A DNA stretch of 33,966 nt from Saprospiraceae bacterium (lineage in GTDB: Bacteria > Bacteroidota > Bacteroidia > Chitinophagales > Saprospiraceae), in the NCBI GenBank assembly GCA_015490715.1, contig WFXH01000010.1, positions 1-33,966 on the forward strand. The letters run 5' to 3'. Of the stretch, positions 788-32,476 are shown one piece after another. The stretch's first letter is position 1. Every line of letters starts with the position of its first letter. The translations under genes were made by a program, and so were the position numbers. The notes beneath the pieces are model-generated. The model was not told the origin of the DNA and made no database searches. It saw nothing but the letters and a program-made list of their open reading frames with translations.

Positions 788-1705
788 TTAGAGGTTGAAG
801 GAGACGAGATCTTTAAATTTGAGCACGCGCTGTTGGATTTCGTCGCGCGTGAGGGTTTTCAGTCGCTGGAGACCGAATTCCTCTACGACGAAGCTCGCCA
901 TGGCAGAGCCGTAGACCATGGCGCGTTTCATGTTGTTGAAGCTCGTGTCGTCGGTAGCTGCGAGGTAGCCGAGAAACCCTCCTGCAAAGGTATCGCCGGC
1001 ACCGGTGGGGTCTTTGACCACGGCGAGAGGGAGGGCTGGCACGAAGAAGATGTCGTCGGAGCTAAATAAAAAGGCGCCGTGTTCGCCCTTTTTAATGATG
1101 AGATAGGAGGGGCCCCACTGGAGGATTTTGGCGGCGGCGACGACGAGCGATCGCTCTCCCGACAGCAGTCGGGCTTCTTCGTCGTTGATGGACAGCACGT
1201 CGGCAAGGGCAATGGCGCGTTGGAGCTCTTCGAGGCTGTGTTTGATCCAGTAGTCCATCGTATCGAGTACGACGAGGCGTGTGGTGTGTTCAGCCAGCTG
1301 ATCGATGACCTGTTGTTGGACGGTGGGCGTGAGATTGCCGAGGAGGATGTAGGGCGTAGTGGTGTAATCGTCGGGGAGCTGTGGATGAAAGTTTTCCAAC
1401 ACATTGAGTTCGGTGACGACGGAATCTCTATGGATCATGTCGGGGTGGTAGCGGCCGTGCCAGTAGAAGGACTTCGCTCCCTGGATGCGTTGGATGCCGG
1501 CCGTGGAGACGCCGCGCTTTTCGAGTATGTGGAGCTCTTCCTCGGGAAAGTCGTCGCCGATGATGGAGATCATGCCCACCGATTGGATGAAGAAGGAGGC
1601 CGACCAGGCGCTGTACATACACGAGCCCGCTACGGTGCGTTCTACTTTGCCGTAGGGGGATTCGACGGTGTCGAAGGCAACGGTACCAACGGTCAACAAT
1701 TTCAT
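788..1705 (-). CDS. PfkB-family carbohydrate/nucleoside kinase
   Basis: 305 residues from the ATG at 1705. The open frame extends 33 codons upstream, but the family N-terminus (MKLLTVGTVAFDTV) begins here. Seen: a GG-type nucleotide and sugar fold with NDEEA near residue 174, and DPTGAGDTFAGG at 232-243, where D238 is the catalytic base of the ribokinase/PfkB family. The family phosphorylates sugars or nucleosides with ATP in the cytoplasm. The substrate cannot be told: adenosine-kinase-like and sugar-kinase-like members both look like this. The gene stands alone between tRNA genes. A copy of the repeated word GTATGAAAT overlaps the start codon (1699-1707). Confidence 0.88.
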   Translation of the reverse strand: MKLLTVGTVAFDTVESPYGKVERTVAGSCMYSAWSASFFIQSVGMISIIGDDFPEEELHILEKRGVSTAGIQRIQGAKSFYWHGRYHPDMIHRDSVVTELNVLENFHPQLPDDYTTTPYILLGNLTPTVQQQVIDQLAEHTTRLVVLDTMDYWIKHSLEELQRAIALADVLSINDEEARLLSGERSLVVAAAKILQWGPSYLIIKKGEHGAFLFSSDDIFFVPALPLAVVKDPTGAGDTFAGGFLGYLAATDDTSFNNMKRAMVYGSAMASFVVEEFGLQRLKTLTRDEIQQRVLKFKDLVSFNL

Positions 1706-1744
1706 ACACGGATCGTTAAAATCAAGACAAAGACCACGCAAAGA

Positions 1745-1777
1745 TTGCACAATTTTTGAATTAAATGCGTAACTTTG
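1745..1777 (+). promoter_or_regulatory. Possible promoter of tRNA-Asn
   Basis: TAACTTTG at 1770-1777 matches the TAnnTTTG -7 element exactly. A TTG at 1745-1747 lies 22 bases upstream, slightly longer than the usual 19-21. Transcription would start near 1784, about 70 bases before tRNA-Asn. Confidence 0.4.
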
Positions 1778-1854
1778 CATCCGCTCTGCGTGGGATGGGG
1801 ACATTAGAAAGCAGGTGCTTTCACGGAGGGGATGTCCTTCAACCCACAGAGCAT

Positions 1855-2008: not shown

Positions 2009-2476
2009 ATGAATGTATTACGGCGTTTTTACGGCTTTGCCTACATAGGCATGGTGTTTTTCGGGATGTGGATACTCGTCGTGGGGTGTAAGCCCGAGGT
2101 CAAGCCCATCGAGTACGGCAAGGACGTGTGTCACTTTTGCAACATGACCATTGTCGACAAGGCTCACGCCGCGCAATACGTCACTAAAAAGGGGAAAAAC
2201 TACAAGTTTGACGCTATCGAGTGCATGATACGTCAGATTTTGCAGGAGGACAATATGGATGCCCTGGCCATCATTTTAGTAGCCGATTATGCGCATCCCG
2301 GCGTGTTGGTGCCTGCCGACGAAGCGGTGTATCTCATCAGTGAGGGCATCCGCAGTCCGATGGGGGCAAACCTGTCGGCATTTTCTTCAAAAGAAGAGGC
2401 CGAAAAGGCGCTACAGACCCACGGTGGACAGCTGTATAATTGGTCGGAAATCCTCGATTATTTCCGTCAACATTGA
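2009..2476 (+). CDS. nosL: NosL, copper-binding lipoprotein of nitrous oxide reductase assembly
   Basis: 155 residues. A hydrophobic signal sequence ends in a lipobox (LVVGC, Cys27). The NosL metal site CHFCNM follows at 41-46, and the downstream DAIECM element is also present. In known systems NosL is an outer lipoprotein that binds Cu(I) and delivers it to the CuZ site of NosZ. It is the first gene of a four-gene cluster and ends 8 bases before nosD. No nosZ lies upstream: the preceding gene is tRNA-Asn, 80 bases away. NosL relatives also act as general copper chaperones, so the partner could be another enzyme. Confidence 0.9.
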   Translation: MNVLRRFYGFAYIGMVFFGMWILVVGCKPEVKPIEYGKDVCHFCNMTIVDKAHAAQYVTKKGKNYKFDAIECMIRQILQEDNMDALAIILVADYAHPGVLVPADEAVYLISEGIRSPMGANLSAFSSKEEAEKALQTHGGQLYNWSEILDYFRQH

Positions 2477-2484
2477 TTGTCTTG

Positions 2485-3723
2485 ATGAGGTGGTGGCACA
2501 TAGCATTGGTAGGAATTGCCCACGGTGCTATGGCCGGGACGATACGGGTATGCGACACCTGTCGCTTTCAATCCATCGCCGGGGCCATTGCTCAGGCAAA
2601 CAAGGGGGATACGGTGCTGGTGTATCCAGGAGTGTATCGGGAGTCCAATATTCAAGTCGACAAGTCGCTCTACGTCGTGGGCATCAACTATCCCCGGGTG
2701 GATGTCCAGCAGCAGGGTTATGGCTTTGTGCTCAAGGGCGATTCGATAACTTTGAAGGGATTTGAAATCTACGATGTAGAGCAGAGCTATGTCAAGGAAT
2801 ATGCGGCCGTACTGGTGCGGCGCTGCACGACCTTTGTGGTGGAAGATCTGCGCATACGCCGTGCCTTTTTTGGCATATTAGCTGAAAAATCGTCGAGCGG
2901 GGTAATACGAGACAATCGGATCAGTGGAGTATATCGCACTGAGGCAGATGCGGGCAACGGCATACATCTGTGGCACTGCAAGCACATGCGCATCGAGGGC
3001 AATGTCGTCCATCACATGCGCGACGGCATCTACTTCGAGTTTGTTTCCCGAAGTGTCATTGAACACAATCACTCCCACGACAATGTGCGCTACGGATTGC
3101 ACTTTATGTTTAGCAACAACGATGAATATCACGACAACATCTTTGAGCGCAATGGGGCAGGGGTAGCGGTGATGTTTTCGAAATACATCCACATGCGCCG
3201 CAATGTGTTTCGCGACAATTGGGGTGTGGCCTCCTATGGTCTACTGTTAAAGGAGATCTACGATGCCACGATTACGGACAACCATTTTATACGCAACACC
3301 ATAGGCATCAACATCGATGGGTCGACGCGCATTCGCTACGAGCGCAATCTCTTTCAAGCCAACGGATGGGCAGTGCGCATCCTCGGTGCGAGTTATCAAA
3401 ACGATTTTAGTGAAAACAATTTTCTCCACAACACCTTTGATGTGGCTTTTAGCGGGCGGGAGACGACGGTGCGCTTTGTGCGCAATTACTGGAGTGATTA
3501 CACGGGCTATGATCTGGACAGAGACGGATACGGCGATGTGCCCTATCGGCCCGTGAAGTTGTTTTCGTATATCGTCAATCAGGTGCCTGAGGCCATGGTC
3601 TTGTTGCGGAGTTTGTTTGTGGGGTTGATCAACTTTTCGGAGAAAGTCTCGCCGGTATTTACGCCGGACAATCTCGTCGATAGCAAGCCTGCCATGCGGG
3701 CGTACGATATTGAGGTGCGATGA
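2485..3723 (+). CDS. nosD: NosD, periplasmic beta-helix copper-maturation protein
   Basis: About 412 residues from the ATG at 2485. The frame is open from 2440, but the residues after 2485 form a clean signal peptide (MRWWHIALVGIAHGAMA), and this start avoids a 37-base overlap with nosL. The body is a right-handed parallel beta-helix of CASH type. It is rich in repeated N-x-x and G-I units around 110-320 (for example HNHSHDN and the NNDEY region), and ends in the NYWSDYTGYDLDRDG element typical of NosD. NosD works with the NosFY transporter to mature the Cu centre of N2O reductase. The stop overlaps the nosF start (ATGA). Confidence 0.93.
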   Translation: MRWWHIALVGIAHGAMAGTIRVCDTCRFQSIAGAIAQANKGDTVLVYPGVYRESNIQVDKSLYVVGINYPRVDVQQQGYGFVLKGDSITLKGFEIYDVEQSYVKEYAAVLVRRCTTFVVEDLRIRRAFFGILAEKSSSGVIRDNRISGVYRTEADAGNGIHLWHCKHMRIEGNVVHHMRDGIYFEFVSRSVIEHNHSHDNVRYGLHFMFSNNDEYHDNIFERNGAGVAVMFSKYIHMRRNVFRDNWGVASYGLLLKEIYDATITDNHFIRNTIGINIDGSTRIRYERNLFQANGWAVRILGASYQNDFSENNFLHNTFDVAFSGRETTVRFVRNYWSDYTGYDLDRDGYGDVPYRPVKLFSYIVNQVPEAMVLLRSLFVGLINFSEKVSPVFTPDNLVDSKPAMRAYDIEVR

Positions 3724-4436
3724 TACAGATACGTGGATTGACGAAGACCTTTGGCAAGCTGCGCGTCCTTGACGACTTGCACTTAGACATTGCAGAGTCC
3801 AGGGTAACGGCTATTTTAGGTCCAAACGGATCAGGTAAGACGACCTTGATCAAGAGCATACTCGGCATGGTGGTGCCCGATAAGGGGGATGTCTGGATCG
3901 ATGGCACTTCGGTGCGTGGCCAATGGGCCTATCGGCGCAACATTTCATACATGTCGCAAATCGCCAATTTTCCCGCCAATCTTCGGGTACGCGAAGTGGT
4001 CGACATGATCCGCGAGATTCGCCAGCAGCCGGCTCCTAATATGGATGAAATCGTCCGCCGCCTGGGTGTTGGGCGGTTTTGGAACAAGCAAATGCAGCAT
4101 TTGTCGGGGGGAATGCGCCAAAAGGTCAATGTCTTGTTGACCTTTATGTTTGACACGCCGATCTACATTTTAGACGAGCCGACCACGGGCTTAGATCCGC
4201 TGGCTTTGATGCATTTGAAGGAGTTGATTGTGCAGAGGAAGGCACAAGGCAGGACCATTCTGATCACCTCGCACATCATGGGTTTTGTCGAGGAGATGGC
4301 GCAACACGTCGCCTTTCTCGTCGAGGGGCGCCTCTACTTTGATGGAAGCCTTGAGGAGCTGAAACAGCGCACGGGTACGGATACCCTTGAGCAGAGCATT
4401 GCAGAAATTATAAAGCGCAATTATGCAGCTGTATAA
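3720..4436 (+). CDS. nosF: NosF, ABC transporter ATP-binding protein
   Basis: 238 residues with a complete ABC nucleotide-binding domain: Walker A GPNGSGKT at 34-41, a Q-loop (MSQ), signature LSGGM, Walker B YILDEPT and the switch His in TSHIM. NosF powers the NosDFY complex in the cytoplasmic membrane. It starts in an ATGA overlap with nosD and its 3' end overlaps nosY by 14 bases, so the three are surely co-translated. A copy of the repeated word GTATAAAAT contains its stop codon (4431-4439). Confidence 0.93.
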   Translation: MIQIRGLTKTFGKLRVLDDLHLDIAESRVTAILGPNGSGKTTLIKSILGMVVPDKGDVWIDGTSVRGQWAYRRNISYMSQIANFPANLRVREVVDMIREIRQQPAPNMDEIVRRLGVGRFWNKQMQHLSGGMRQKVNVLLTFMFDTPIYILDEPTTGLDPLALMHLKELIVQRKAQGRTILITSHIMGFVEEMAQHVAFLVEGRLYFDGSLEELKQRTGTDTLEQSIAEIIKRNYAAV

Positions 4437-5211
4437 AATCGTGCGATACGTCATACGGGATCTGTTGCGGAGTCGGTGGACCTATGTGTACTTTGCCTTT
4501 TACTATTTGCTGGGCATGGTGTTGTTGTTTATCAATCGCGATTTGTCGAAGGCGGTCATTACCTTGATGAACATCATCACGATTTTAACACCTCTGATCG
4601 GCACGGTCTTTGGCGTGATGTATTACTACAATTCGAGGGAGTTTATCCAGTTGCTCTTAGCGCAGCCTTTGCGGCGCGATATGCTCTTTAGCGGACAGTA
4701 CATCGGTGTGTCGCTGTCGCTTTCGTTGAGTTTGATTTTGGGTTTGGGCATTCCGTTTTCGATGTATGGGGTGTTGTACTCGGGCGTGATCTGGGATTTT
4801 GCGGTGTTGTTGGTCATTGGGGGATTTTTGACGTTCATCTTTGTTGGGTTGGCCTTGGTGGTGGCTCTTGCCAACGACAATCGCATAAAGGGTTTTGGTT
4901 ATGCTATTTTTCTGTGGTTGGCCTTTGCGGTGGTATACGATGGGCTATTTTTGCTGGGGCTGCTGTATTTTCGCGATTACCCGCTGGAGAAGTTTGCTCT
5001 TGGGGGGGTGTTGGTCAATCCGATCGATCTTTCGCGCATACTGATTTTGCTCAAGCTCGACATCGCTGCACTGATGGGCTTTACGGGTGCGGTATTCAAG
5101 AAGGTCTTTGGCACGTCTGTGGGAATGATCATGGCCTTTGGCGCGCTGCTTCTCTGGGTGTGGATTCCCTGGCAGCTGATGTTGTGGTATGCGCGCAGGA
5201 AGGATTTTTGA
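4423..5211 (+). CDS. nosY: NosY, ABC transporter permease
   Basis: 262 residues, almost entirely hydrophobic with about six membrane segments (roughly 20-38, 43-66, 94-116, 125-150, 160-180, 225-258) and short charged loops such as NSREFIQLLLAQPLRRD near 70. This is the ABC-2 type permease layout of NosY, which pairs with NosF and NosD. It is the last gene of the cluster. The next gene (waaA) converges, with 24 bases between the two stops and no clear terminator hairpin. Confidence 0.9.
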   Translation: MQLYKIVRYVIRDLLRSRWTYVYFAFYYLLGMVLLFINRDLSKAVITLMNIITILTPLIGTVFGVMYYYNSREFIQLLLAQPLRRDMLFSGQYIGVSLSLSLSLILGLGIPFSMYGVLYSGVIWDFAVLLVIGGFLTFIFVGLALVVALANDNRIKGFGYAIFLWLAFAVVYDGLFLLGLLYFRDYPLEKFALGGVLVNPIDLSRILILLKLDIAALMGFTGAVFKKVFGTSVGMIMAFGALLLWVWIPWQLMLWYARRKDF

Positions 5212-5235
5212 CGATGCCAGCTGCATTGGCGGATC

Positions 5236-6480
5236 TCACTGGAGAGCACTTTGGACGAGGTGAAGCAGTTTAGAAGAGGGGTGTTCGTATTTTTTAAAAT
5301 ACTCCCGTAGGGCGGCACGTGCGCGATGGTGCGCTGCTCGTTGGGCGAAGTGTTCGAAGGCCTGCAGCAGTGCGTTGGCGTTGGAGATAGCTCGGGCTGC
5401 GCCTATGCGGAGGAATTCCTGTGCCTCGGGGGAGTTGGCGTACGAGGGACCCCAGAGCAGGGGTATTTCGTAAGCGGCAGGTTCGAGGGCGCTGTGAATT
5501 TTTCCTCGAAAGCCACCGCCCACATAGGCCATGTCGGCCAAGCGGTAGAGCTTGTTGAGCCAACCAATCGTGTCGACGATGAGCACGCGCGATCGGGCGG
5601 ATTGGCTCGGGTTTGTCCAATAGCTGGCAGAGGGAAAGAGCCGGGACAGGTAGCGCATGTGGGAAGCTCCCACATCGTGGGGGGCGATGAGCAGTTTCCA
5701 CTGCCGAAAGGCGTCGGATTGGATCAGTTGTGCCAGCAGTTGTTCGTCCTTGTGCCAGGTGCTGCCCGCTACCAAGAGGCGGTGGTCACGTATGAAATCG
5801 TGGACGAAGGCGGGGAAGGCGACCTCTTGACGTGCAATTTGTCGGACACGGTCGATGCGGGTGTAACCGATGAGCTGAGCGCGGTCTAAGCCGCGTTCCA
5901 GGGCAGCGTGTAAACTGTGTCGGTCGCGTACAGCTATTGCATAGGCATTTTTTAACAAGGGGAGCCAGGCTCTTCCGATAAAATTTAAGGGATACTTACC
6001 TGGTCGAAACACTACGTTGAAGGGGATCAATGGTATACGCCTTTGATGGATGAGCTCGATGGCGTGCCACCACCAATCGTATTCAGCCCACAGCACGATA
6101 TCGGGGTGGATGTGATCGATAAAATGGTGCATTGAGTGGTAGTCGTCCCAAGGCAGGTACCAGGTGCGATACCAGCTGGTGTGTGGCTGGACGTGTTCGT
6201 AACCCGAAGGGCTGAAGAAGCTCACTTCAATTGCGGCGTTGGGAATGTGTTGTCGGATGGTCTCCAGCACGGGCAGGGCGCCCTCGTATTCGCCGAGCGA
6301 GGCACAGTGTACCCATACGACGGGCCCTCCAGAGCGTTTGTGCTGGGATCGCTCCTTGAGAATTGCTTTTTGAGCGCGAATCCCTGACGAACGTTTGGCC
6401 ACTGCGGGAAAAATTCGACGCATTAAGGGTTCGAGCACCAACCAGAGGCGGATAGCTATGTCGTAAAGCCGTCGGATCAA
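5236..6480 (-). CDS. waaA: 3-deoxy-D-manno-octulosonic acid (Kdo) transferase
   Basis: 414 residues. Transfers Kdo from CMP-Kdo to lipid A precursor at the inner face of the cytoplasmic membrane (LPS core synthesis). Seen: an N-terminal hydrophobic anchor (about 8-26), WVHCASLGEYEG with the catalytic glutamate E64, and the C-terminal GT30/GT-B nucleotide-sugar site VGGGF-x-GKIHSALEPAAY. The start codon is TTG at 6480, in a TTGA overlap with the stop of the upstream gene; no better start lies downstream before the conserved region. It is the last gene of the minus-strand run beginning with mreD. Confidence 0.92.
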   Translation of the reverse strand: MIRRLYDIAIRLWLVLEPLMRRIFPAVAKRSSGIRAQKAILKERSQHKRSGGPVVWVHCASLGEYEGALPVLETIRQHIPNAAIEVSFFSPSGYEHVQPHTSWYRTWYLPWDDYHSMHHFIDHIHPDIVLWAEYDWWWHAIELIHQRRIPLIPFNVVFRPGKYPLNFIGRAWLPLLKNAYAIAVRDRHSLHAALERGLDRAQLIGYTRIDRVRQIARQEVAFPAFVHDFIRDHRLLVAGSTWHKDEQLLAQLIQSDAFRQWKLLIAPHDVGASHMRYLSRLFPSASYWTNPSQSARSRVLIVDTIGWLNKLYRLADMAYVGGGFRGKIHSALEPAAYEIPLLWGPSYANSPEAQEFLRIGAARAISNANALLQAFEHFAQRAAHHRARAALREYFKKYEHPSSKLLHLVQSALQ

Positions 6481-7283
6481 TAGAAGATGAGCTCTTTGCT
6501 TTGGTTTCCAAAATAATATCGAAGGTGATAGCTCACCGAAACACCAGCGGTGATATCGATCCTATACGTGCGGTCGTATGCCATCTGATCGTAGTTAAAA
6601 CTACGCAGGTTGCGCGTGCGAGCGAAGTATGAGAAGAGGGTTATGGAGAAGTTTCTTCGGTTTTTGACGTCGAGCAGGCGATAGCGTAGGGCCAATCGAA
6701 GGGAGGGGCCGCCACTGAGTCGATCCAGGCCACGGCCGTAATGGCCGAAGAGCTGGGCTACCGATCGCGAGTCGTCGACAAAGTAGATGCGGTGGCGCAT
6801 TACTCCCATGCCGATAGATGCTTGTGTGTAATGGTGGAGCGATTGTTGTTGGAGGATACGAAATGCATAATCCATGGTAGCCCCTATCCATGAGCCGCGC
6901 ATGCGGAGCAGGACGTTGGCGGGGGTAGCGCCGCTTTCGTCCCAGCCGTAGATATGACCGTATTCGTCGCGCAACCATGCGAGGGGGTCTTCTTTGACGG
7001 TTTTGCCGAAGAAATAATCGTACACGATACTCCAGGACCAGGGTGAAGCTGCAGGCTGGAATCCCACCGTAATTCCGTTGGAGAGGAAGGTACCATAGCG
7101 GTGGGCGAGGGCGGCATAGGGTTGATGTACTGCGTAGTGGTAGGCAAACTCCGCTGTGTGTTTTTTCATCCAGGGGGGAGCGGTGCGAATGTTTTGCTGT
7201 GCACGTATGAAGCTATAGGAATGAAGAGAGAGGAGTGCGACGAGGCTGGCGGACCACCATTTTATACGGCGAAGATCAGGCAT
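6477..7283 (-). CDS. Exported protein of unknown function, probably outer-membrane barrel
   Basis: 268 residues. A signal peptide (about 1-28, cleaved after RAQ) is followed by alternating-hydrophobicity strands rich in Tyr, Trp, Phe and Gly. The C-terminus is VSVSYHLRYYFGNQSKELIFY, as in small outer-membrane beta-barrels. I do not recognise a named family. Its start overlaps the folB-folK stop by 8 bases and its stop overlaps the waaA start, so it belongs to the same operon. A link with LPS or envelope assembly is plausible from position only. A GTATAAAAT repeat lies at 7259-7267, inside the signal-peptide codons. Confidence 0.75.
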   Translation of the reverse strand: MPDLRRIKWWSASLVALLSLHSYSFIRAQQNIRTAPPWMKKHTAEFAYHYAVHQPYAALAHRYGTFLSNGITVGFQPAASPWSWSIVYDYFFGKTVKEDPLAWLRDEYGHIYGWDESGATPANVLLRMRGSWIGATMDYAFRILQQQSLHHYTQASIGMGVMRHRIYFVDDSRSVAQLFGHYGRGLDRLSGGPSLRLALRYRLLDVKNRRNFSITLFSYFARTRNLRSFNYDQMAYDRTYRIDITAGVSVSYHLRYYFGNQSKELIFY

Positions 7284-8770: not shown

Positions 8771-10231
8771 TTATGTGTCCTTTTTCAGCATTTCAAGCCA
8801 GTACTTCCATTTCAGGCTCTTCGTCTCGCTGTAGAGCCAGAGGAGGGAGAAACCTCCTGCTAAGGATAACGCACATACCGCTATGAGCATATGCGATTGT
8901 GGGATGAGCTGTTCGAATATCCACACGGCAAACGTGGTCGCGATGCCGAAAGCGCAAAATCGGCATAGATAGCGGAGATCCAACTCGGGTAAGACTTCTC
9001 TGCGGAGGAGGTAAAATCCCATGACGACGACGGCCAGCTGGGTTATCAGAGTGGCCAGTGCTGCCCCTTCGGCCTTGAAGACGGGAATATATACGGCATT
9101 CAGTGCGATATTAGCGAAAGCGGCGATGCCGTAGAGCATGCTGGCTTTGCGCACTTTGCCAGCGGCGAGCAGGAGCGCCCCCTGTACATAGGAAAGCGCT
9201 GAAGCGGGAAACGACCAAAGGAGCCAGCCCCATACTTCGCCCCAGTAAGGGGTAAAGTGCGTATAGAGCACCTGCATGATGATGTGTCGGAAGGGAAAGC
9301 ACACCAAAGCGGTCAGTAGCCCAATCATCCACAGCAGGCCCGCTCCGAGTCGGAAGAGGGGAAAAGGCGATTTTCCCTCGCGGTACAATCGCGCAAACAT
9401 CGGCAGCAGGAGGCTGGCAAACAAAAAGGCAAACATGTTGAGCATTTCCCACAGGCGATATGCCGCGGCGTACACCCCGGCGTGATAATCACCATCGGGC
9501 AAGAGAAATTTCAACATCACGCTGTCTACGCGCGTGTAGATGGTGCCGAAGAAGAGCACAGCAGCATAAGGGAGACTCTTTCGCAATAGCCTCCACACCC
9601 AAGGGAGTGAAAGGGAAAAACGCATGCCCCTCAGCTGAGGCACCAACACATGTAGCGCTATGCCAATGGTGATAAAAATCGACAGAGTTTGTGCCAGTAT
9701 AAAATGGTGCACCTTTAGCTCAAATGAAGGCAGCCCCCAAATGAGGAAGGCCATAATCGTGATGAGCCAAAACTTGTCGGCAACCGATAGCAGGCTGTCC
9801 ACGCGGTAGTGACCAAGTGCGGCAATGTTGGAGCGAAAGAAAAACAGAAAGGAAATCAACACCAGATTGAAAGACAGAAGTGCTAAATTGACGAGAAGTG
9901 AGGGACTCAGCCCAAGAAAGTAAGCACTGCCCAAGACAGCCGCCATGTATAGGATGGCCAATATGCCTTTTAGCGAAAGCAGATGGGGAAAGTATTGGGC
10001 GAAGGCTGAGGGCTGGTGGGATATTTCGCGGGCGGTGAAGTTTTGGATGCCGAAGTCGTTGAGGAGGGCAAAGAGATAGGCGTAACTCAGCAGAGCAGAG
10101 TAGGCACCGCCGTAGACATCGGGACCGAGCAGATTTTGTACTGTGCGATCGATGCCAAAGACGTAGAGTGGTTTGATGAGGAGGTTGGCCGTGGCGAGGA
10201 TGGCGATGTTGATGAGAAACTCGCGTTTCAT
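8771..10231 (-). CDS. Polysaccharide/oligosaccharide flippase (MOP superfamily, Wzx-like)
   Basis: 486 residues with about 12-14 membrane segments along the whole length and a typical MOP-superfamily start (NIAILATANLLIKPLYVFGIDR). An early loop reads LLGPDVYGGAYSAL; proteins of this family commonly have LG-x-x-x-YG here. The family flips lipid-linked sugars across the cytoplasmic membrane. Substrate unknown: O-antigen, capsule or lipid II-like. It starts 5 bases after folA and ends flush with the SDR start. A GTATAAAAT repeat lies antisense at 9697-9705. Confidence 0.85.
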   Translation of the reverse strand: MKREFLINIAILATANLLIKPLYVFGIDRTVQNLLGPDVYGGAYSALLSYAYLFALLNDFGIQNFTAREISHQPSAFAQYFPHLLSLKGILAILYMAAVLGSAYFLGLSPSLLVNLALLSFNLVLISFLFFFRSNIAALGHYRVDSLLSVADKFWLITIMAFLIWGLPSFELKVHHFILAQTLSIFITIGIALHVLVPQLRGMRFSLSLPWVWRLLRKSLPYAAVLFFGTIYTRVDSVMLKFLLPDGDYHAGVYAAAYRLWEMLNMFAFLFASLLLPMFARLYREGKSPFPLFRLGAGLLWMIGLLTALVCFPFRHIIMQVLYTHFTPYWGEVWGWLLWSFPASALSYVQGALLLAAGKVRKASMLYGIAAFANIALNAVYIPVFKAEGAALATLITQLAVVVMGFYLLRREVLPELDLRYLCRFCAFGIATTFAVWIFEQLIPQSHMLIAVCALSLAGGFSLLWLYSETKSLKWKYWLEMLKKDT

Positions 10232-13090: not shown

Positions 13091-13151
13091 AGGAGTTTGC
13101 CGTTATTTCATACGGCATAAAGGTAATACAAGCAGCCTTTATCTGTCATGT

Positions 13152-17736: not shown

Positions 17737-17796
17737 TGGATCTATGGATTATACCCATCTTTTTTGGGATGAAACGCGTATGGATTGAGGTATGAA

Positions 17797-21386: not shown

Positions 21387-21896
21387 ATGCAAGATTCGAG
21401 TGCACGGGAAATACCGACGGAGTTGCGCGTATTGTTTGTCTGCTTGGGCAATATTTGTCGTTCGCCGATGGCGGAAGGCATCTTGCGCGATAGGGTGCAG
21501 AGGCTTGGTTTGCATTGGGAGGTGGATTCGGCGGGCACGAGTGACCTGCGCATTGGTCAGCCCCCTGATCCTCGGGCGATCGAAGAGGCGGCCCGTCACG
21601 GCATCGACATTAGCGGAAAGATTTCACGCCTGTTTGAGCCAGTAGATTTTGACCGCTTTGATCTTATCATCGCCCTGGATCGCTCTGTCGAACAGACGTT
21701 GAGGGAGATGGCAGGGGACGAGCCCATGTATCAAGATAAAATCCACTTGTTGACCGAATACAGTACCCAATACCGCAATCAAGATGTGCCGGATCCCTTT
21801 GTACAGGGGGGCTTTGATGTGGTGTATGAAATGTTGGACGAATCCATCGATGGGTTAATTGAGGCCTTTGAGCCCCATTTCATTGCCGATGCCTAA
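21387..21896 (+). CDS. Low-molecular-weight protein tyrosine phosphatase
   Basis: 169 residues. P-loop CLGNICRS at 19-26 (nucleophile Cys19, Arg25) near the N-terminus, DSAGTSDLRIGQPPD, and the general acid Asp136 in DPF. Cytoplasmic. Members dephosphorylate tyrosine, for example of polysaccharide-chain-length kinases, or arginine. It starts 50 bases after the M36 stop and ends flush with mnmE (TAA followed directly by ATG). A 5-bp hairpin GAGAT/ATCTC lies in the gap from M36. GTATGAAAT lies at 21824-21832. Confidence 0.93.
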   Translation: MQDSSAREIPTELRVLFVCLGNICRSPMAEGILRDRVQRLGLHWEVDSAGTSDLRIGQPPDPRAIEEAARHGIDISGKISRLFEPVDFDRFDLIIALDRSVEQTLREMAGDEPMYQDKIHLLTEYSTQYRNQDVPDPFVQGGFDVVYEMLDESIDGLIEAFEPHFIADA

Positions 21897-23270
21897 ATGG
21901 TGTATCGCTACGACACTGCCGATACCATCGTAGCGCCTGCGACGCCTCCGGGCACGGGTGCCATTGCGGTGGTGCGCCTCTCAGGGTCTGAGGCCATAGC
22001 CATCGCCAATGCTCTGTTGCCTAAGGTGGATCTGGCGAAGGTGAAGAGCCGTACGGTGCAGTACGGGGTTCTATCACGAGATGGTGAAGAGCTCGATGAG
22101 GTGTTGGTGACGGTCTTTCGCGCGCCGCACAGCTATACGGGCGAGGATGTGGTAGAAATCTCCACGCATGGCTCGATGTACGTGGTGCGCAAGCTGGTAC
22201 AGTGGTGCATCGATGCTGGTGCGCGCATGGCAGAGCCCGGCGAATTTACGATGCGCGCCTTTTTCAACCGCAAGATGGATCTCAGTCAGGCAGAAGCCGT
22301 CATCGACATCATTCAGGCGGACAGCGCCGCAGCGCATCGGCAAGCCATGCTCCAACTGCGTGGAGCCTATTCCGAACAGTTGCGATTGCTGCGTCAGAAG
22401 ATCATCGAATTTGCCGCTCTTCTCGAATTAGAGCTCGACTTTGGCGAAGAAGACGTAGAGTTTGCCGATCGCACCCAGCTACAAGGCACGCTCCAAGAGA
22501 TACTGCGGCTCACGGGGGAGCTGCGCGATTCCTATCGTCTGGGGGTAGTTGTCAAGGAGGGGGTACCCACCGTCATTGCAGGTCGCCCCAATGTGGGCAA
22601 ATCGACACTGCTCAATGCTCTTCTGCGCGAGCAGCGCGCCATCGTATCCGACATCCCCGGCACTACGCGCGATGTGATCGAAGCCAGCCTGCTCATCAAA
22701 GGCGTGCGCTTCCGCCTCATCGATACGGCAGGGCTCCGCCAAACCACCGACACCGTAGAAGCCATCGGTGTGCAGAGGGCTAAGGAGTACCTCCAAAAGA
22801 GCCAGCTCGTACTCTATGTCCTCGATGCAACGGAGCAATCCTTTGAAGCCGCTAAAGCAGAGTGGGAAAAGCTCGAGTTGCCCCATGCCTATGTCCTCTT
22901 TGTCGCCAACAAGTGGGATATGGTCGGCGACGGTGAGCGGCCTGTCTGTAATCATCAAGAGTGCATTGCCATCAGTGCCCTCCACGGCCACGGCCTCGAC
23001 GCCTTGAAAGATCGCATGTATGAAATGGTGATCGGCGATACATCCCTGCAGGAAAAGACGTTGGTGACCAACGCACGGCACTATCAGGCCCTTGTCCAAG
23101 CACATGAAGCCCTTGAGCGGGCCCTCCAGGGATTGGAAGAATCCCTCCCGGCAGACCTCATCGCCATGGACATCCGCCAGGCTTCCCATCACTTAGGTGC
23201 CATCATCGGCGAGGTCGACCCCGAAGATTTACTCGATTACATCTTCGCCAACTTCTGTATCGGCAAGTGA
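21897..23270 (+). CDS. mnmE: tRNA modification GTPase MnmE (TrmE)
   Basis: 457 residues. An N-terminal tetrahydrofolate-binding domain (TIVAPATPPGTGAIAVVRLSG) is followed by a helical domain and an inserted G domain: GRPNVGKS at 229-236, the PGTTRD switch, DTAGLR and NKWD. The C-terminus is FCIGK with the conserved Cys. With MnmG it makes the 5-carboxymethylaminomethyl group on wobble U34 of certain tRNAs. Its last 42 bases overlap the 3' end of the convergent pnuC gene. GTATGAAAT lies at 23018-23026. Confidence 0.97.
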   Translation: MVYRYDTADTIVAPATPPGTGAIAVVRLSGSEAIAIANALLPKVDLAKVKSRTVQYGVLSRDGEELDEVLVTVFRAPHSYTGEDVVEISTHGSMYVVRKLVQWCIDAGARMAEPGEFTMRAFFNRKMDLSQAEAVIDIIQADSAAAHRQAMLQLRGAYSEQLRLLRQKIIEFAALLELELDFGEEDVEFADRTQLQGTLQEILRLTGELRDSYRLGVVVKEGVPTVIAGRPNVGKSTLLNALLREQRAIVSDIPGTTRDVIEASLLIKGVRFRLIDTAGLRQTTDTVEAIGVQRAKEYLQKSQLVLYVLDATEQSFEAAKAEWEKLELPHAYVLFVANKWDMVGDGERPVCNHQECIAISALHGHGLDALKDRMYEMVIGDTSLQEKTLVTNARHYQALVQAHEALERALQGLEESLPADLIAMDIRQASHHLGAIIGEVDPEDLLDYIFANFCIGK

Positions 23271-24973: not shown

Positions 24974-25002
24974 CCCTTGGAGCAAACACAAAAGTAGCGA
25001 AA

Positions 25003-25560
25003 ATGGTTTTGACCCCCTCACAGATGGTTCCGCTGGGTACGCCAGCGCACGATTTTATACTGATCGAACCGCGAAGCGGAAAAATGCGCTCCCTGGAGGA
25101 ATTACGATCCGACAAGGGTACGGTCATCATCTTTATGTGCAATCACTGTCCTTACGTGATCCATATCATGCCGGCGCTCGTTCCCCTTTCAAAGGAGTAC
25201 ACGAAAAAGGGCATCTCCTTTGTCGGCATCAATGCCAACGACATTGAAAACTACCCCGATGATGCCCCCGACAAGATGATCGTCTTCCAGGAAAAGTGGG
25301 GTTTTGATTTTCCCTACCTCTTTGACGAAACGCAGCAGACGGCAAGGGCCTATCAAGCGGCATGTACGCCCGATATTTTCGTCTTTGATGGCGGTATGAA
25401 ATTGTACTACAGGGGGCGATTCGACGCCACGCGACCGGGCAGTGGATCCTCCCCCACGGGTGAAGATCTCGCTGCAGCTCTGGACGCCTTGCTGGCCGGC
25501 AAGGAGCCACCAAAGGAGCAATTCCCCAGCGTAGGGTGTAATATCAAATGGAAATCCTGA
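25003..25560 (+). CDS. Thioredoxin-fold (AhpC/TSA-type redoxin) protein
   Basis: 185 residues from ATG 25003. Thioredoxin fold with the redox motif CNHCPYV (Cys46, Cys49), PALVPLSKEYTKKGISFVGINAND, and the cis-Pro in ACTPDIFVFD. This CNHC subfamily occurs widely in Bacteroidota as a peroxiredoxin-like or thiol oxidoreductase protein. There is no signal peptide with this start, so it is probably cytoplasmic. Its stop lies 17 bases inside the convergent pnuC copy 2. Two copies of the repeat word lie inside (25052-25060, 25394-25402). Confidence 0.88.
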   Translation: MVLTPSQMVPLGTPAHDFILIEPRSGKMRSLEELRSDKGTVIIFMCNHCPYVIHIMPALVPLSKEYTKKGISFVGINANDIENYPDDAPDKMIVFQEKWGFDFPYLFDETQQTARAYQAACTPDIFVFDGGMKLYYRGRFDATRPGSGSSPTGEDLAAALDALLAGKEPPKEQFPSVGCNIKWKS

Positions 25561-26832: not shown

Positions 26833-26851
26833 TTGGTGAGCCATTTTCCGT

Positions 26852-28360
26852 ATGAAATCGACGGTGCTTGATTTGCAGGGGTTGATTATCGAGCTTCGAG
26901 GGCGACGCGTCATCGATGATCTGAGTCTTTCCCTTCCAGAGGGTGCAATCACGGCGCTGGTAGGCCAAACGGGCGCGGGAAAAACTCTGGTCGCACTGAC
27001 GCTGCTCGGATTCATTCCTTCCGAACACCTCCGGGGAAGACTTCGGCTGCTGCACATACCCAATGCTTTTGAGCTCAGCCCTCGCCAGTGGGAAGGTCTT
27101 CGCGGGACGACCATTGGGTTGATGATGCAGAATTCCCACGAGGCCTTTGATCCGCTCTACACGGTGGGATCGCAAATTACGGAGAGTATGCACAGCGTGC
27201 TCGGAATGAGAAAAGAAGAAGCGCGGAAGCACCTCTACGGTGAAATGGCCGAGTTGGATCTCGATCGAGACTTGCTGGAAGCTTATCCCCATGAGCTATC
27301 TGGAGGGGAATTGCAGCGTTTTGCCTTGCTGTGGACCTTTGTGTTGCGTCCAAAGATAGTTGTGCTGGACGAGCCTGTAGCGGCGCTGGATGCCTCCTTA
27401 CGTCAAAAAGCCCTATCGTATATTCACCATAGACAAAAGGAGGGTTCTATTGCACTTCTGTGGATTACGCATCAAGTACATATCGCTTTAAAGTATGCAG
27501 ATCGAATGGCCATCATGCGAAGGGGGAAGATTGTCGAGTGTGGAACGGTAGAAGAGCTCCGACGACGGCCCAGACATCCCTATACGCGTCAACTCTTCCA
27601 ATACGCTGAGATCTTGAGCGAGCAGAAGGTGCGTATTCAGGAGAGGGCGGCGCCTGAAGTACCTCGTGGCACACGTGTCTTAGAGGTGAGAGACCTGTAT
27701 TATCGCCATCCTCGTATTCGAGATCGTTTTTTATTTCGGGGGCTCCGTTTTTCCTTAGCTGAGGGTCAATCGCTTGGCATCATGGGGCCATCGGGAGTGG
27801 GAAAGTCGACGCTCGCCCTGCTGATCGCTGGATTACTCAAGCCCGAGGGTGGGGAAATCTGGCTTAAGGGTGTGCAATCCAATGCAGTGGATTCTACGCA
27901 TCGACATCGGATCCGTCATCCCGTACAAATCATCTGGCAACACCCCTCGAGTTCTTTACATCCCTACCGGTCTGTACGAGCTACCCTGTGCGAAGCGCTT
28001 CAATGTCGTCCGTCTACGTTACCACCGCTCCAAATTGGGGATTTGCTTCGATGGGTTGAGCTCGAAGAAGACGTGTTGGACCGCTATCCACGGCATCTGT
28101 CTGGCGGCCAACAGCAGCGCGTGAGCATAGCAAGGGCACTGGCTGTAGGACCTGAAGTGCTGTTGTGTGACGAGCCCGTCTCAGCACTCGATATGGCGAC
28201 GCGCTTGCAAATATTACAGCTGTTGCGTCGCATACAAGCGGAGCAACGCCTCAGCATCCTCTATGTTTCCCATGCTCTGAGCGAAATCGCCTTTCTCTGC
28301 CGATATGCCCTCCGATTACCTGATCAGAAGTGGATCGAGCTGGGAGTTTTAGGTGAGTAA
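26852..28360 (+). CDS. ABC transporter with two fused ATPase domains (peptide/nickel type)
   Basis: 502 residues. NBD1: Walker A GQTGAGKT (38-45), signature LSGGELQR, Walker B IVVLDEPVAALD, and the C-terminal RRRPRHPYTRQLF element seen in DppD/OppD. NBD2: Walker A GPSGVGKST (312-320), LSGGQQQR, VLLCDEPVSALD. This is the YejF/GsiA-like fusion that drives oligopeptide, glutathione or nickel importers. No permease or binding-protein gene is adjacent, so the partner lies elsewhere. NBD2 ends shortly after its switch region, without the usual C-terminal oligopeptide extension. The start codon lies in a GTATGAAAT repeat. Confidence 0.9.
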   Translation: MKSTVLDLQGLIIELRGRRVIDDLSLSLPEGAITALVGQTGAGKTLVALTLLGFIPSEHLRGRLRLLHIPNAFELSPRQWEGLRGTTIGLMMQNSHEAFDPLYTVGSQITESMHSVLGMRKEEARKHLYGEMAELDLDRDLLEAYPHELSGGELQRFALLWTFVLRPKIVVLDEPVAALDASLRQKALSYIHHRQKEGSIALLWITHQVHIALKYADRMAIMRRGKIVECGTVEELRRRPRHPYTRQLFQYAEILSEQKVRIQERAAPEVPRGTRVLEVRDLYYRHPRIRDRFLFRGLRFSLAEGQSLGIMGPSGVGKSTLALLIAGLLKPEGGEIWLKGVQSNAVDSTHRHRIRHPVQIIWQHPSSSLHPYRSVRATLCEALQCRPSTLPPLQIGDLLRWVELEEDVLDRYPRHLSGGQQQRVSIARALAVGPEVLLCDEPVSALDMATRLQILQLLRRIQAEQRLSILYVSHALSEIAFLCRYALRLPDQKWIELGVLGE

Positions 28361-28387
28361 CCATTTCATACAAAAAGAGAAAAAAAG

Positions 28388-29038: not shown

Positions 29039-31747
29039 TCAGGATTTCGCAGCAGCGGTGGGCGGAGCAGTCGTTTTGGCAAAATCGCCCGCTTTGACCA
29101 CGACAAATTGGCTTGGCTGTACATATCGACGAAAGACACGATGTACTTCGTCGGTGGAGAGTTGTCGTGCACGTTGGAAGAGATCTTCGTACCACTGCAT
29201 CGTGCGCTCCTTAAAGAGGTTGTCTTCCAGGGTAGCTGCCAGCCATCGATCATCCGAAAAGCGTAGATGGTATTTTTGAATCCAACCCTGTACGGCGTTT
29301 TGGAGTTCGCGCTCTTCGAAACCCTCTTGAAGGGCTTTGTCCAGCTCTTCGAAGACGGCACGGTGGAGGCGTTCCCTATCCGAAGGGGAAAAGATGGCGT
29401 AACAGGAGAAAGCGGCCGAAGCACTGAAGTAATTGGCCGAAAAGCTCGAAGCCACACCGTAGCTCATGCCCTCTTTTTGGCGAACACGCGTGGCTAATCG
29501 CGAAGAGAGAAATCCCCCGCCTATGATGACATTGGCGATTACCATGGGTAGGTAGTCCTGATCTCTTTGACTGAGAGGTATCAGCATACCAGCTTTGAAG
29601 ACGGCATTGGCTTTGTCGGGCGTGTTGATCTCGATCTCTTGAGCTGAAGTGGGAAAGTAGAGATTGGGGATCAATTGAAATGGTTGTTCGGCAGGTTGGT
29701 TGGAAAACTGCTCTTGGAGCCACGAGCGGACTTCTTCGGGAGCGAAGTCTCCCACAACTCCAATGGTGATGTGATCCGTGCCGTAGAATTGGCGGTGAAA
29801 TTGGCGGATCTCGTCGAGTTGCAGATTCGATATTTGCTGGATTTCCTCGTCGAGGGTGCGTACATAACGGGGATCCTCCGGTGCGTAGCGATATAGGGCA
29901 CGTCGATAGGCGAGGGAGGCAAGGGTGAGGGGATCTGTGCGGCGGTGTTCGAGGGCGGCGAGAACTTCCCTGCGCAATTTTTCGAATGCCTTTTCTTCCA
30001 GGGCAGGATCGAACAAGAGCTCTGACAGCAGTTCTATAATGGTGCACAAGTGTGCTCGTCGCGTTTCGATGATGACGGATACGGCATCGAAGTAGGGATG
30101 GATGTCGATGGTCGTACGGGTGGTGTCGAGTATGTCGTTGATCTCTTCCTGGGATTTCTGGCGCGTGCCTTTTAACAGGAGGCGTCCGAGGAAGAGGGCT
30201 GCTTCGGTTTTGCCTTTGAGACTCTGAAGAGTGCCGTACCGCATAGTTAGGGACAAGTGGACCGTTTGGCCGCGCGTCTTTTTGGGGAGTAAGGCGATTT
30301 GCGGGTCATTGGCATGGACAATCTTCTGCGTGAGGCGGTCGATATTGGCAGGTGTGGCTTCGAAAGCCTCACCCGATGCACGGCTCTTGCCTCCGCGATA
30401 GTCGCGCAACAGCTCTTCCAGGGGAGGAGCTTCTTCAATTTCTACAATGTGGGGTTCCTTGACGGGTTCAAAGATACCCGTCGTGCGATTGGAAGGGTGG
30501 AAATACCTTTTGGCTACCTCGACGATGTCTTCACGCTGTACCGCCTGAATCTGATCGCGAGCGTAGAAAAACAGCCTCCAATCACCCCGGGCGATGAAGT
30601 TGGTCAGCAGAATGCCCATCTTTTCGGGATCGTTGAAGGCCATGTCCCATTCCTTGAGCAAGCGGTTTTTGGATCGCTCCACCTCTTTATCCGGGGGTAT
30701 CAAATCAGCGAGCCGATCCATGATGTCGAGCGTGGTCTGACGCAGCTCGTTAAGAGAGCTATTGGTGCGCGTCTCGGTGTGGATGTAAAAATATCCCGGC
30801 TCCGCCGTGGGAGGGATGAAACCCCATACTCCTGTGGCTTTGCCCGTTTCGATGAGGGCCTTGTACAATATACCCGTAGGCTCGTCGGTAAGCAAGTCAT
30901 TGAGTACCATCAAGGGGTAATAGTGGGGATGGGTGGATGCGGGGATGTGGTACAGGCATGCGAAGAGCTGTATCTCGCCGACGCGCTTGAGATGTACGGT
31001 TCGCTCACCGTCCTGGGCGGGTTCGCGCGTATACGTGGGCAGTAAGGGGAGTCGACTGCGGTCTGGGGCTGGTATGCGGCCGAAGTATTTTTGTATGCGT
31101 TGGAGTGCGTCGAGCACTTCAATCTTGCCCGTCACGATGAGCACGGCATTGTCGGGTTGGTAGTATCGGTCGTAAAACTCCCGCAATCGCTCGGCGGGCA
31201 CGTGTAAGATGTCGGATAGACAGCCGATCGTGCTGTGGCCGTAGTTGTGCCAATCGTACGCCGCTCCGATCATGCGCTTGTAGAGCACGTGGGCAGGTTG
31301 GTTTTCTCCCATTTCATACTCATTGGCGATGACCTTGGCCTCGCTTGCTAAATCTTTGGCTGAAATGTTGGCGTTGCGCATGCGGTCGGCTTCGAGTTCG
31401 ATGGCCCAGTCGAGGAGTTCGTCGGAGGCGGGAAAAGTTTCGTAATAATTGGTGCGATCCATCCAGGTGGTGCCATTGGCGCGCACACCCCGCTGCGTAA
31501 ACTCTTCCGGTATGTCGGGATGCGAGGGCGTGCCTTTAAACATCAAGTGTTCTACGATGTGTGCCATTCCGTATTCGCCGTAGCCCTCATGCCGTGAGCC
31601 GACGCGATAGGTGATATTGACGGTGATCGTCGGCCGGGAAGGATCGGGGAAGAGCAAAATCTGCAGACCGTTGTCCAAACGGTATTCTTCGATGCCTTCG
31701 ATGGCACGTATAAACCGAACGTTGGGGGGGAGATTTTGATGTGCCAT
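29039..31747 (-). CDS. M16 family zinc metallopeptidase, two-domain
   Basis: 902 residues from ATG 31747; about 160 codons of open frame upstream have no family similarity. The N-terminal half is active: inverted zinc motif HIVEH (His63, Glu66, His67) and the third ligand Glu143 (ANEYE). The C-terminal half lacks the zinc motif but has LATRVRQKEGMSYGV, the Arg/Tyr substrate-binding pair. Two M16 halves in one chain form the clam-shell peptidase that degrades peptides. No signal peptide or lipobox is visible, unlike many Bacteroidota M16 proteins, so it may act in the cytoplasm. The gene diverges from the acyltransferase. Confidence 0.92.
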   Translation of the reverse strand: MAHQNLPPNVRFIRAIEGIEEYRLDNGLQILLFPDPSRPTITVNITYRVGSRHEGYGEYGMAHIVEHLMFKGTPSHPDIPEEFTQRGVRANGTTWMDRTNYYETFPASDELLDWAIELEADRMRNANISAKDLASEAKVIANEYEMGENQPAHVLYKRMIGAAYDWHNYGHSTIGCLSDILHVPAERLREFYDRYYQPDNAVLIVTGKIEVLDALQRIQKYFGRIPAPDRSRLPLLPTYTREPAQDGERTVHLKRVGEIQLFACLYHIPASTHPHYYPLMVLNDLLTDEPTGILYKALIETGKATGVWGFIPPTAEPGYFYIHTETRTNSSLNELRQTTLDIMDRLADLIPPDKEVERSKNRLLKEWDMAFNDPEKMGILLTNFIARGDWRLFFYARDQIQAVQREDIVEVAKRYFHPSNRTTGIFEPVKEPHIVEIEEAPPLEELLRDYRGGKSRASGEAFEATPANIDRLTQKIVHANDPQIALLPKKTRGQTVHLSLTMRYGTLQSLKGKTEAALFLGRLLLKGTRQKSQEEINDILDTTRTTIDIHPYFDAVSVIIETRRAHLCTIIELLSELLFDPALEEKAFEKLRREVLAALEHRRTDPLTLASLAYRRALYRYAPEDPRYVRTLDEEIQQISNLQLDEIRQFHRQFYGTDHITIGVVGDFAPEEVRSWLQEQFSNQPAEQPFQLIPNLYFPTSAQEIEINTPDKANAVFKAGMLIPLSQRDQDYLPMVIANVIIGGGFLSSRLATRVRQKEGMSYGVASSFSANYFSASAAFSCYAIFSPSDRERLHRAVFEELDKALQEGFEERELQNAVQGWIQKYHLRFSDDRWLAATLEDNLFKERTMQWYEDLFQRARQLSTDEVHRVFRRYVQPSQFVVVKAGDFAKTTAPPTAAAKS

Positions 31748-31921
31748 GGCCGTATGGTTTTGGTATGAAATGGTCGATCGTACGCGAATCCAGACACCTT
31801 CGAAGTACATCCGACGGCTGCGGTTGCAGATGTACCGAATGGCGGGGATTCTTGGCATATAACGCCATTGGGAGGGATGCGGTTTGAGCAGATGGTGTAT
31901 TTTGGGGCCAAAGTAGGAAAT

Positions 31922-32476
31922 ATGGCACCATGGCGTAGCTGGATTGCTCGGCGAATATTGCACTGGAAGGGTTGGAAGATCGAAGGAGAGGAACATGCCA
32001 GGCCGCTGCAAAAAGCCGTCTTTGCCCTTGGACCGCATACTTCCAACTGGGATTTTATCATCGCCATCTTGGTGCGCGAAGCTACCGGCATTCCTTCGCG
32101 CTATCTCGCCAAACACACGCTGTTTCGACCGCCCCTGGGATGGCTCATGCGCGCTTTGGGGGGCTATCCCGTCGATCGAAGCCGACCGCAGGGACTCGTT
32201 CGGACAGTGGTGGATATCTTCCGCAAAGAACCGCATTTTCTACTCGCAATCACACCCGAAGGTACGCGTAAAAAGGTCGACAAACTCCGGTCGGGCTTTT
32301 ACTACATCGCTCGCGAAGCACAAGTGCCCATCGTGCCTGTGGGCTTGGATTACGGCAAAAAGCTCGTACGATTTTATACCCCCATAGATCCTCGACGGGA
32401 TCGAGATGAGGTCCTATCTGAGGTTACTGAAATCTTTCGCTCCCATCGGGGAAAATACCCGCATCAAAGCATTTAA
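31922..32476 (+). CDS. Lysophospholipid acyltransferase family protein (1-acyl-G3P acyltransferase-like)
   Basis: 184 residues from ATG 31922. Earlier in-frame starts exist (TTG 31868, ATG 31877, ATG 31892), but the conserved start (ILHWKGWKIEGEE) fits 31922. Motif I HTSNWD (39-44, HX4D catalytic pair), motif III PEGTR (112-116) and VPVGLDY. It acylates a lysophospholipid or related lipid at the inner membrane. TIGR02757 follows after 9 bases. The 174-bp gap to the divergent M16 gene has one GTATGAAAT copy (31763-31771). Confidence 0.87.
   Translation: MAPWRSWIARRILHWKGWKIEGEEHARPLQKAVFALGPHTSNWDFIIAILVREATGIPSRYLAKHTLFRPPLGWLMRALGGYPVDRSRPQGLVRTVVDIFRKEPHFLLAITPEGTRKKVDKLRSGFYYIAREAQVPIVPVGLDYGKKLVRFYTPIDPRRDRDEVLSEVTEIFRSHRGKYPHQSI

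Follow-up and report, generated by a model that had tools for sequence, protein, structure and literature searches.

An abundant uptake-sequence-like DNA word in Saprospiraceae bacteria without recognizable pilins

The GTATRAAAT word in the window and across the genome

The window analysed here is a stretch of 33,966 bp from a Saprospiraceae bacterium (assembly GCA_015490715.1, contig WFXH01000010.1), and the element in question is a short DNA word, GTATRAAAT, scattered through its genes and the gaps between them. The MnmE protein encoded in the window has its closest relatives in Saprospiraceae and other Bacteroidota (best 53% identity), and the phylum named in the original prediction, which was made from the sequence of the window, is therefore right. 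The word is present in 20 exact copies, against a mean expectation of 0.44 in 100 dinucleotide-preserving shuffles (largest value 2). Thus, the enrichment claimed originally stands, although the count of 19 given for it was one too low. The reported strand balance (10 copies on each strand) and the presence of a further NGT after the word in 14 copies were both recovered (14/20), as was a near match at 4041 (GGATGAAATCGT, one mismatch).

The copies occupy very different contexts, and the varied reading frames, antisense placements and intergenic copies described in the original prediction were all found. Inside genes and in sense orientation, the word lies on the minus strand at 1696..1707 (GTATGAAATTGT; predicted gene 788-1804(-)), 7256..7267 (GTATAAAATGGT; predicted gene 6477-7283(-)), 16633..16641 (GTATAAAAT, without GT; predicted gene 16620-17366(-)) and 31311..31319 (GTATGAAAT, without GT; M16 peptidase gene 29039-32236(-)), and on the plus strand at 18462..18473 (GTATGAAATCGT; M36 peptidase gene 17785-21336(+)), 21824..21832 (GTATGAAAT, without GT; predicted gene 21387-21896(+)) and 23018..23029 (GTATGAAATGGT; mnmE, 21897-23270(+)). 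Antisense copies are located on the minus strand at 3281..3292 (GTATAAAATGGT; nosD-like gene 2440-3723(+)) and 3942..3950 (GTATGAAAT, without GT; ABC ATPase gene 3720-4436(+)), and on the plus strand at 5790..5801 (GTATGAAATCGT; predicted gene 5236-6480(-)), 9697..9708 (GTATAAAATGGT; predicted gene 8771-10231(-)) and 31763..31774 (GTATGAAATGGT; the M16 peptidase gene). Other copies fall at gene boundaries: the plus-strand copy at 4431..4442 (GTATAAAATCGT) lies in the overlap of two plus-strand genes, that at 17790..17801 (GTATGAAATGGT) at the 5' end of the M36 peptidase gene, and that at 26850..26858 (GTATGAAAT, without GT) covers the start codon of predicted gene 26852-28360(+), an ABC transporter by appearance only. 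On the minus strand, the copy at 28360..28371 (GTATGAAATGGT) sits between two convergent genes, whose ends are at 28360(+) and 28388(-), and that at 13105..13113 (GTATGAAAT, without GT) was called intergenic. Gene calls were mechanical, and the context is unsure for at least three sites: 25049..25060 (minus, GTATAAAATCGT), in the overlap of frames 23859-25142(-) and 24961-25560(+); 25394..25405 (plus, GTATGAAATTGT), within the open frame 24961-25560(+), where the gene caller chose an antisense frame; and 32368..32379 (minus, GTATAAAATCGT), called intergenic yet spanned by the open frame 31868-32476(+). The window also contains a nos-type run on the plus strand (2009-5211), in which NosL was identified by Pfam and NosD at 413 bits (cut-off 300), together with an ABC ATPase and one protein that matches no NCBIfam model. 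On its minus strand, two genes for PnuC-type nicotinamide riboside transporters lie about 2 kb apart (23229-23843 and 25544-26167).

The word extends to the whole genome containing the window (G000, of genus g1; 2,454,194 bp in 115 contigs), where the 12-mer GTATRAAATNGT has 674 copies, 350 and 324 by strand, and the same pattern reversed, taken as control, has none. This genome-wide count, one of the checks suggested originally, is far above expectation. In a Markov ranking (order 3, 324,573 bp sample of G000, 9-mers with at least 8 copies), likewise suggested at the outset, the two variants of the word take the first two places by z, with GTATGAAAT first (85 copies against 2.7 expected) and GTATAAAAT second (63 against 3.1). 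The profile of 148 copies consists of the fixed GTATRAAAT, a weak S, G (85%), T (77%) and weaker R and S, giving KNGTATRAAATSGTRS as the full form around the core GTATRAAAT (also written GTATRAAATSGT for the word of genera g1 and g42, see below), with a weak T-rich tendency upstream.

This anatomy bears on the idea of epigenetic accumulation, with an orphan methyltransferase or a restriction-modification system acting on the word, as proposed for the cyanobacterial HIP1. Restriction sites are usually avoided in genomes rather than enriched. Moreover, the word differs from its own reverse complement and is built of an 8-base fixed core and two further biased bases. HIP1 does offer a precedent, being a short word found at very high density across the genome for which a link to orphan methyltransferases has been proposed; however, HIP1 is palindromic and tied to methyltransferases (PMC4390886), whereas the word described here is non-palindromic with degenerate positions. 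We therefore regard a methylation target as improbable.

The placement of the word was analysed in 598,971 bp of G000 (24% of the genome, 454 mechanically called genes; the sample includes one contig, L197 or G000:C19, whose 2,694 letters are all N). The 273 copies are divided 140/133 by strand. Intergenic copies amount to 103 (38%) although only 12% of the sequence is intergenic, an approximately three-fold enrichment, whereas the copies inside genes are split equally between sense and antisense (78 each), with 14 more at gene edges, all in sense orientation. The enrichment is consequently limited neither to start codons nor to one gene family, as copies are found in varied genes. If the word were a regulatory element, be it a promoter, a terminator or an RNA signal, the intergenic excess would be accounted for; nevertheless, 62% of the copies lie in genes or at their edges, and among the intergenic regions it is the divergent gaps that have the fewest copies per kb (1.0, against 1.38 in convergent and 1.76 in codirectional gaps). 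Pairs of copies at most 100 bp apart are in excess (34 against 10.5 expected; 235 gaps in 599 kb), but direct pairs (14) and the two kinds of inverted pair (12 and 8) occur without the preference that hairpins would require. The equality of sense and antisense copies, the low density in divergent gaps and the unoriented close pairs all speak against promoters and hairpin terminators, roles that we reject on placement, and a regulatory element of any kind seems very improbable.

Over the same 235 gaps, the coefficient of variation of gap length is 1.0, as under random placement. The fairly even spacing described in the original prediction is therefore not sustained, the excess of close pairs also being at odds with it. 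The argument made there from balanced strands against a Chi or KOPS role was, on the contrary, strengthened: there are no strand runs (neighbouring copies are on the same strand in 99 cases and on different strands in 136), and the strand of the copies correlates weakly with GC skew (-0.28, 24 loci). Together with the 350/324 genome total, these figures reveal no strand bias following the direction of replication, and a Chi- or KOPS-like polarity is rejected. The longest word-free stretches (10.2, 9.7 and 8.8 kb) are compatible with chance at this density, by an estimate rather than a formal test. The 9.7-kb stretch (L097, G000:C9, approximately 2254-11837) encodes CCG/Fer4, pyridine-nucleotide oxidoreductase, GcvH-like and DsrE proteins, a gene set that we take to resemble an sHdr-type sulfur-oxidation cluster; it is possibly acquired DNA, though its length is within chance.

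Conservation between species and dialects of the word

Within genes, the word overrides codon preference. Of the 78 sense copies, 62 share one reading frame, which encodes Y-K/E-I/M. The corresponding Y[KE][IM] tripeptides are 1.6-fold commoner than composition predicts (117 against 72), which could be taken to indicate that the word is a by-product of codon or peptide preference. However, 63 of these 117 tripeptides are spelled exactly by the word when codon usage predicts 6.8, and the intergenic and antisense copies are numerous, so that this explanation is rejected. Relics of a dispersed mobile repeat are rejected as well, because information does not extend beyond the core and a handful of flanking bases with weak bias: all positions outside GTATRAAATNGT carry at most 0.31 bits, leaving no longer repeat unit. 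Repeat relics and coding by-products are, in our view, the least probable of the explanations considered. The extra GT is kept in 84 of the 103 intergenic copies (82%) but in 58-60% of the genic ones (sense 53/92, antisense 47/78), suggesting a preference for the longer form wherever coding leaves it free.

The word is also conserved at the DNA level between species. When G000 is aligned with G069, another species of its genus (43,053 bp, 89.0% identity), 24 of the 27 G000 copies are found intact in G069 and 24 of the 26 G069 copies in G000, three of them with A and G exchanged at the R position, whereas shuffled words are intact in 533 of 1245 cases (43%). Considering the 29 sites, the eight fixed bases are 94.8% identical, against 84.9% for the flanks (7-100 bases) and 89.0% for all aligned sequence; the flanks of the copies are thus more divergent than average. 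Conserved copies in divergent flanks are likewise a feature of the Neisseria DNA uptake sequence (DUS), whose copies are described in PMC2397512 as far more conserved than the neighbouring DNA and located in more permissive regions.

Comparison with related genomes, as originally suggested, shows that the word is shared by four family genomes of two genera: G000 (674 copies), G069 (626), G041 (690) and G142 (512), each remaining one of the 298 sampled family genomes having at most 29. Genus g1 uses both A and G at the degenerate position, and genus g42 has a G-only dialect, since 129,766 bp of its member G041 contain 42 copies of GTATGAAAT and 2 of GTATAAAAT. Among 395 sampled class genomes, GTATRAAA is strongly enriched over its reversed control in G000 alone (1389 against 112); the next-highest ratios are those of G480 (33 against 12), G603 (34 against 16) and G407 (544 against 271), and 20 kb of G407, which ranks next to G000 by ratio when the comparison is limited to genomes exceeding 100 matches, yielded no word.

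A different but similar word, even denser, was found in Pontibacter, a genus reached through the named relatives of the window MnmE. Copies of AAGTATAAA number 4309 in P. chinhatensis, 3679 in P. arcticus, 4204 in P. flavimaris, 2758 in P. ruber and 3135 in P. anaerobius, with nearly equal strands and controls of 24-42 in these five carriers (G687-G691). The sixth genome, P. beigongshangensis (G692), is not enriched (99 against 70 in the control). The fuller Pontibacter word is approximately AAAGTATRR(A), also written AAAGTATAA, and was seen in loci L021, L032, L036, L046, L047, L050, L052, L058 and L064. In 11 Pontibacter loci, its 104 copies comprise 29 sense, 38 antisense, 31 intergenic and 6 gene-edge copies. 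The pool used for its profile excludes L056 (the unenriched P. beigongshangensis), L074 (3 copies) and the tiny pieces L171 and L176. The GTATR core common to the Pontibacter and Saprospiraceae words may reflect homology or chance.

Further dialects were sought in 40 class-level genomes, one stretch each, of which 34 measured 8 kb or more and were scored, the other 6 being too short. In these 34 stretches, copy numbers come nowhere near those of Pontibacter, although the 8 copies of a repeat in L243 give it a comparable z (9.9). Words with the density seen in G000 can escape this survey, because the known word was the top 8-mer in 6 of 13 G000 stretches. The over-represented words it recorded are ACGGACAA in L272 (G359), a possible further uptake-like word with 11 copies in 20 kb on both strands against 1.1 expected; CTTGCGTC/GCGTCGCAC in L243 (G573), with 8 and 7 copies in 20 kb, resembling a longer dispersed repeat; and AGTGTCAC in L260 (G323), with 8 copies.

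Uptake machinery and a candidate receptor pair

Abundance, strand balance, permissive placement, conservation at the DNA level and dialects give the word the anatomy of an uptake sequence. Word-guided uptake is documented in Neisseriaceae and Pasteurellaceae and linked there to type IV pili or machines resembling them. The search for com and pil genes suggested in the original prediction covered 18 genomes, namely 12 of the family (the 4 carriers and 8 non-carriers, each of its own genus) and the 6 of Pontibacter, and had a divided outcome. The competence side is present: ComEC and helix-hairpin-helix (HhH, ComEA-like) proteins occur in 12/12 family genomes, the latter directly adjoining comEC in G000, and DprA in 17/18 genomes, not being found in the draft G069. 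On the pilus side, the N_methyl pilin model (PF07963) has no match in any of the 18 genomes, while it matches in 8 of 14 control genomes. The pilus ATPase PF00437 (cut-off 24.9 bits) gives short partial matches in 9/12 family genomes. They just exceed the cut-off in the non-carriers G111 (25.0) and G028 (25.3), over similarly short stretches; among the carriers, there is none in G041 and G142, and those in G000 and G069 are below the cut-off (20.2 bits over about 82 model positions of frames of about 900 amino acids). We therefore conclude that these genomes have no ComP-type receptor, as no N_methyl pilin is found in the 18 genomes and no pilus-ATPase match exceeds the cut-off in the four carriers. 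Since the known systems of Neisseriaceae and Pasteurellaceae rely on type IV pili, an uptake word in these bacteria would use a different outer-membrane step.

A candidate for this step is encoded at G000:C109:10794-15532 on the minus strand, where a TonB-receptor-like protein of 925 amino acids (12755-15532) is followed by a DUF5689 lipoprotein of 649 amino acids. The latter begins like a lipoprotein and contains two DUF5689 domains (307 bits) and a choice-of-anchor J domain (54, cut-off 30), besides a weak DUF5017 match below its cut-off (26.1 against 28.8 bits). This pair resembles one described in Riemerella anatipestifer, likewise a member of Bacteroidota, where transformation needs ComEC, DprA, ComF, RecA and proteins without known counterparts (PMC8459023). 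Among the latter is an essential adjacent pair: one member carries a carboxypeptidase-regulatory domain and is predicted to lie in the outer membrane, and the other, of DUF5689/DUF5017 choice-of-anchor-J type, was placed in the fimbrium by the authors' software. ComEC, DprA and an HhH protein are common to both systems, to which a putative barrel-type protein beside a DUF5689/DUF5017/choice-of-anchor-J protein may be added; judging from the published domain description and arrangement, the G000 pair looks like the counterpart of the Riemerella one.

The two proteins of the pair are unusually similar between the carrier genera. Identity of the 925-amino-acid protein is 53-58% between them, against 32-39% for G000 and non-carriers, and that of the DUF5689 protein is 55%, against 31-42%; in two control pairs of non-carrier genera with the same MnmE divergence (58-59% identity), the former reaches 38 and 45% and the lipoprotein 38 and 48%. 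No such excess is clear for ComEC, its 28-30% between carriers being little above the two control pairs (21 and 28%). These identities derive from open frames read from stop to stop, setting aside the G069 DUF5689 (a contig-end fragment) and the G111 MnmE (a 186-amino-acid fragment) and retaining the G142 barrel (a 534-amino-acid fragment); G036 and G042 have no barrel or DUF5689 values. Such similarity fits a receptor that would have been held constant by a fixed word.

Overall, we consider it probable that the word works like a DNA uptake sequence and does so without pili; the lipoprotein/barrel pair is the foremost candidate for its receptor, albeit a tentative one. Cells would prefer free DNA carrying the word during uptake, and repeated uptake and recombination of related DNA would spread and preserve the copies. 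The word would be read at the outer membrane, where the 925-amino-acid protein is predicted to lie, by the lipoprotein with two DUF5689 domains and a choice-of-anchor J domain encoded beside it; we infer reading by this lipoprotein because no type IV pilins were found. The DNA would then reach the periplasmic multi-HhH ComEA-like protein, pass through ComEC and go on to DprA.

Several observations weigh against this interpretation. Inverted terminator pairs are not preferred, the missing pilins argue against a system of neisserial type, and a shortage of the word in foreign DNA was not demonstrable, the longest word-free stretches being compatible with chance. The word is missing from 294 of the 298 sampled family genomes (110 of 112 genera), while ComEC (8/8), DprA (8/8) and DUF5689 (6/8) are found in the non-carriers. 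With DUF5689 matches in 10/12 family genomes, carriers and non-carriers alike, neither the pair nor the machinery requires the word. The 925-amino-acid protein passes no Pfam cut-off in G000 (TonB plug 16.3, cut-off 23.9; CarbopepD_reg_2 11.8, cut-off 32.2), and its counterparts also remain below them (TonB plug and CarbopepD_reg_2, respectively, 19.7 and 24.2 bits in G041, 16.1 and 26.6 in G028); a PDB sequence search gave no match for the G000 protein or for its G041 counterpart. The receptor comparison is one carrier pair of genera against two control pairs, and as MnmE is also more similar between carrier genera (57-60%) than between carriers and non-carriers (45-51%), the carriers may simply be close kin. 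Finally, Pontibacter, despite its own strong word, lacks this pair, with one weak DUF5689 match in 6 genomes. Relatives of the 925-amino-acid protein there are a distant one in G691 (27% over 254 amino acids) and short N-terminal matches in G687, G688 and G690, with no match in G689 and G692. Consequently, either the proposed receptor does not hold for Pontibacter or more than one kind of receptor exists.

A genome-wide word on both strands, conserved at the DNA level and enriched between genes, would also suit an intracellular chromosome protein, such as a nucleoid-associated protein or a factor for segregation or recombination, requiring one site per 2 kb or so. The lack of strand runs and replication polarity counts against a Chi- or KOPS-like use but not against an orientation-free protein. 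Nevertheless, a presence in 2 of 112 sampled genera would be odd for a housekeeping factor, and no gene product is tied to the word, no search having been aimed at such a protein. A binding site of this kind is unlikely in our opinion, albeit less so than the other alternatives to an uptake-like word.

Relationship to known uptake systems and significance

The original prediction had likened the word to those of Neisseriaceae and Pasteurellaceae. This likeness holds for the genomic marks and fails for the type IV pilus basis, and the same division applies to the uptake-sequence interpretation itself, which the genomic marks favour and the inverted terminator pairs and pilins do not. The Pasteurellaceae use a type IV pilus-like machine. 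As described in parts of PMC3630211 and PMC2397512, the neisserial DUS is a non-palindromic word of 10-12 bases with hundreds to thousands of copies and genus dialects with a common core, all of which is shared with the word studied here. In contrast, we found no pilin or ComP-type receptor and no preferred inverted pairs, and the core is GTATR, not CTG. Because the pilin receptor and the terminator pairs fail, the word is not classified as a ComP-type DUS but said to work like one. The uptake signal sequence (USS) of Pasteurellaceae is similarly a short word on both strands, in genes and between them, with one favoured frame (62/78 in our case), as parts of PMC2346458 report, and it too has a weak T-rich flank on one side; it is nonetheless an unrelated word in unrelated bacteria. 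A minor pilin is its predicted receptor (PMC12616744).

Within Bacteroidota, open-access literature contains, among the matches listed, no identified uptake word, the nearest report being PMC7965970 on Riemerella columbina. In the experiments described in part of that report, its own DNA competes for transformation at 1 ug while R. anatipestifer or E. coli DNA does not; at 10 ug both of these compete, an effect that the authors called unspecific. The top 9- and 10-base words of R. columbina are A-rich, approximately 3-8-fold over expectation, and their function is left open in the same part of the report. No specific uptake word is established for Riemerella (PMC7965970). The preference of R. 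columbina is independent support for the idea that Bacteroidota can favour self DNA.

A broader proposal, to which we give somewhat less than even credence, is that Bacteroidota have their own pilus-free uptake words, in which a surface lipoprotein on a TonB-receptor-like barrel would recognize a word with a GTATR core; the Saprospiraceae-type genera and Pontibacter would then use related dialects, and the receptor pair would co-evolve with the word in the Saprospiraceae-type genera. The idea is open to direct testing in an ordinary environmental genus, Pontibacter, of which named strains are in culture and most genomes examined carry copies by the thousand; P. beigongshangensis offers a natural contrast with the other Pontibacter for the presence of the word. 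The word could also aid genetic work in transformation-resistant Bacteroidota and would hint at where to seek the basis of the self-DNA preference of R. columbina. If the interpretation is true, a pilus-free uptake word in Bacteroidota would mean that this trait has evolved on a different machine, for which a candidate receptor can now be named; under the broader proposal, bacteria would have a second, independent way of telling their own from foreign DNA at the cell surface.

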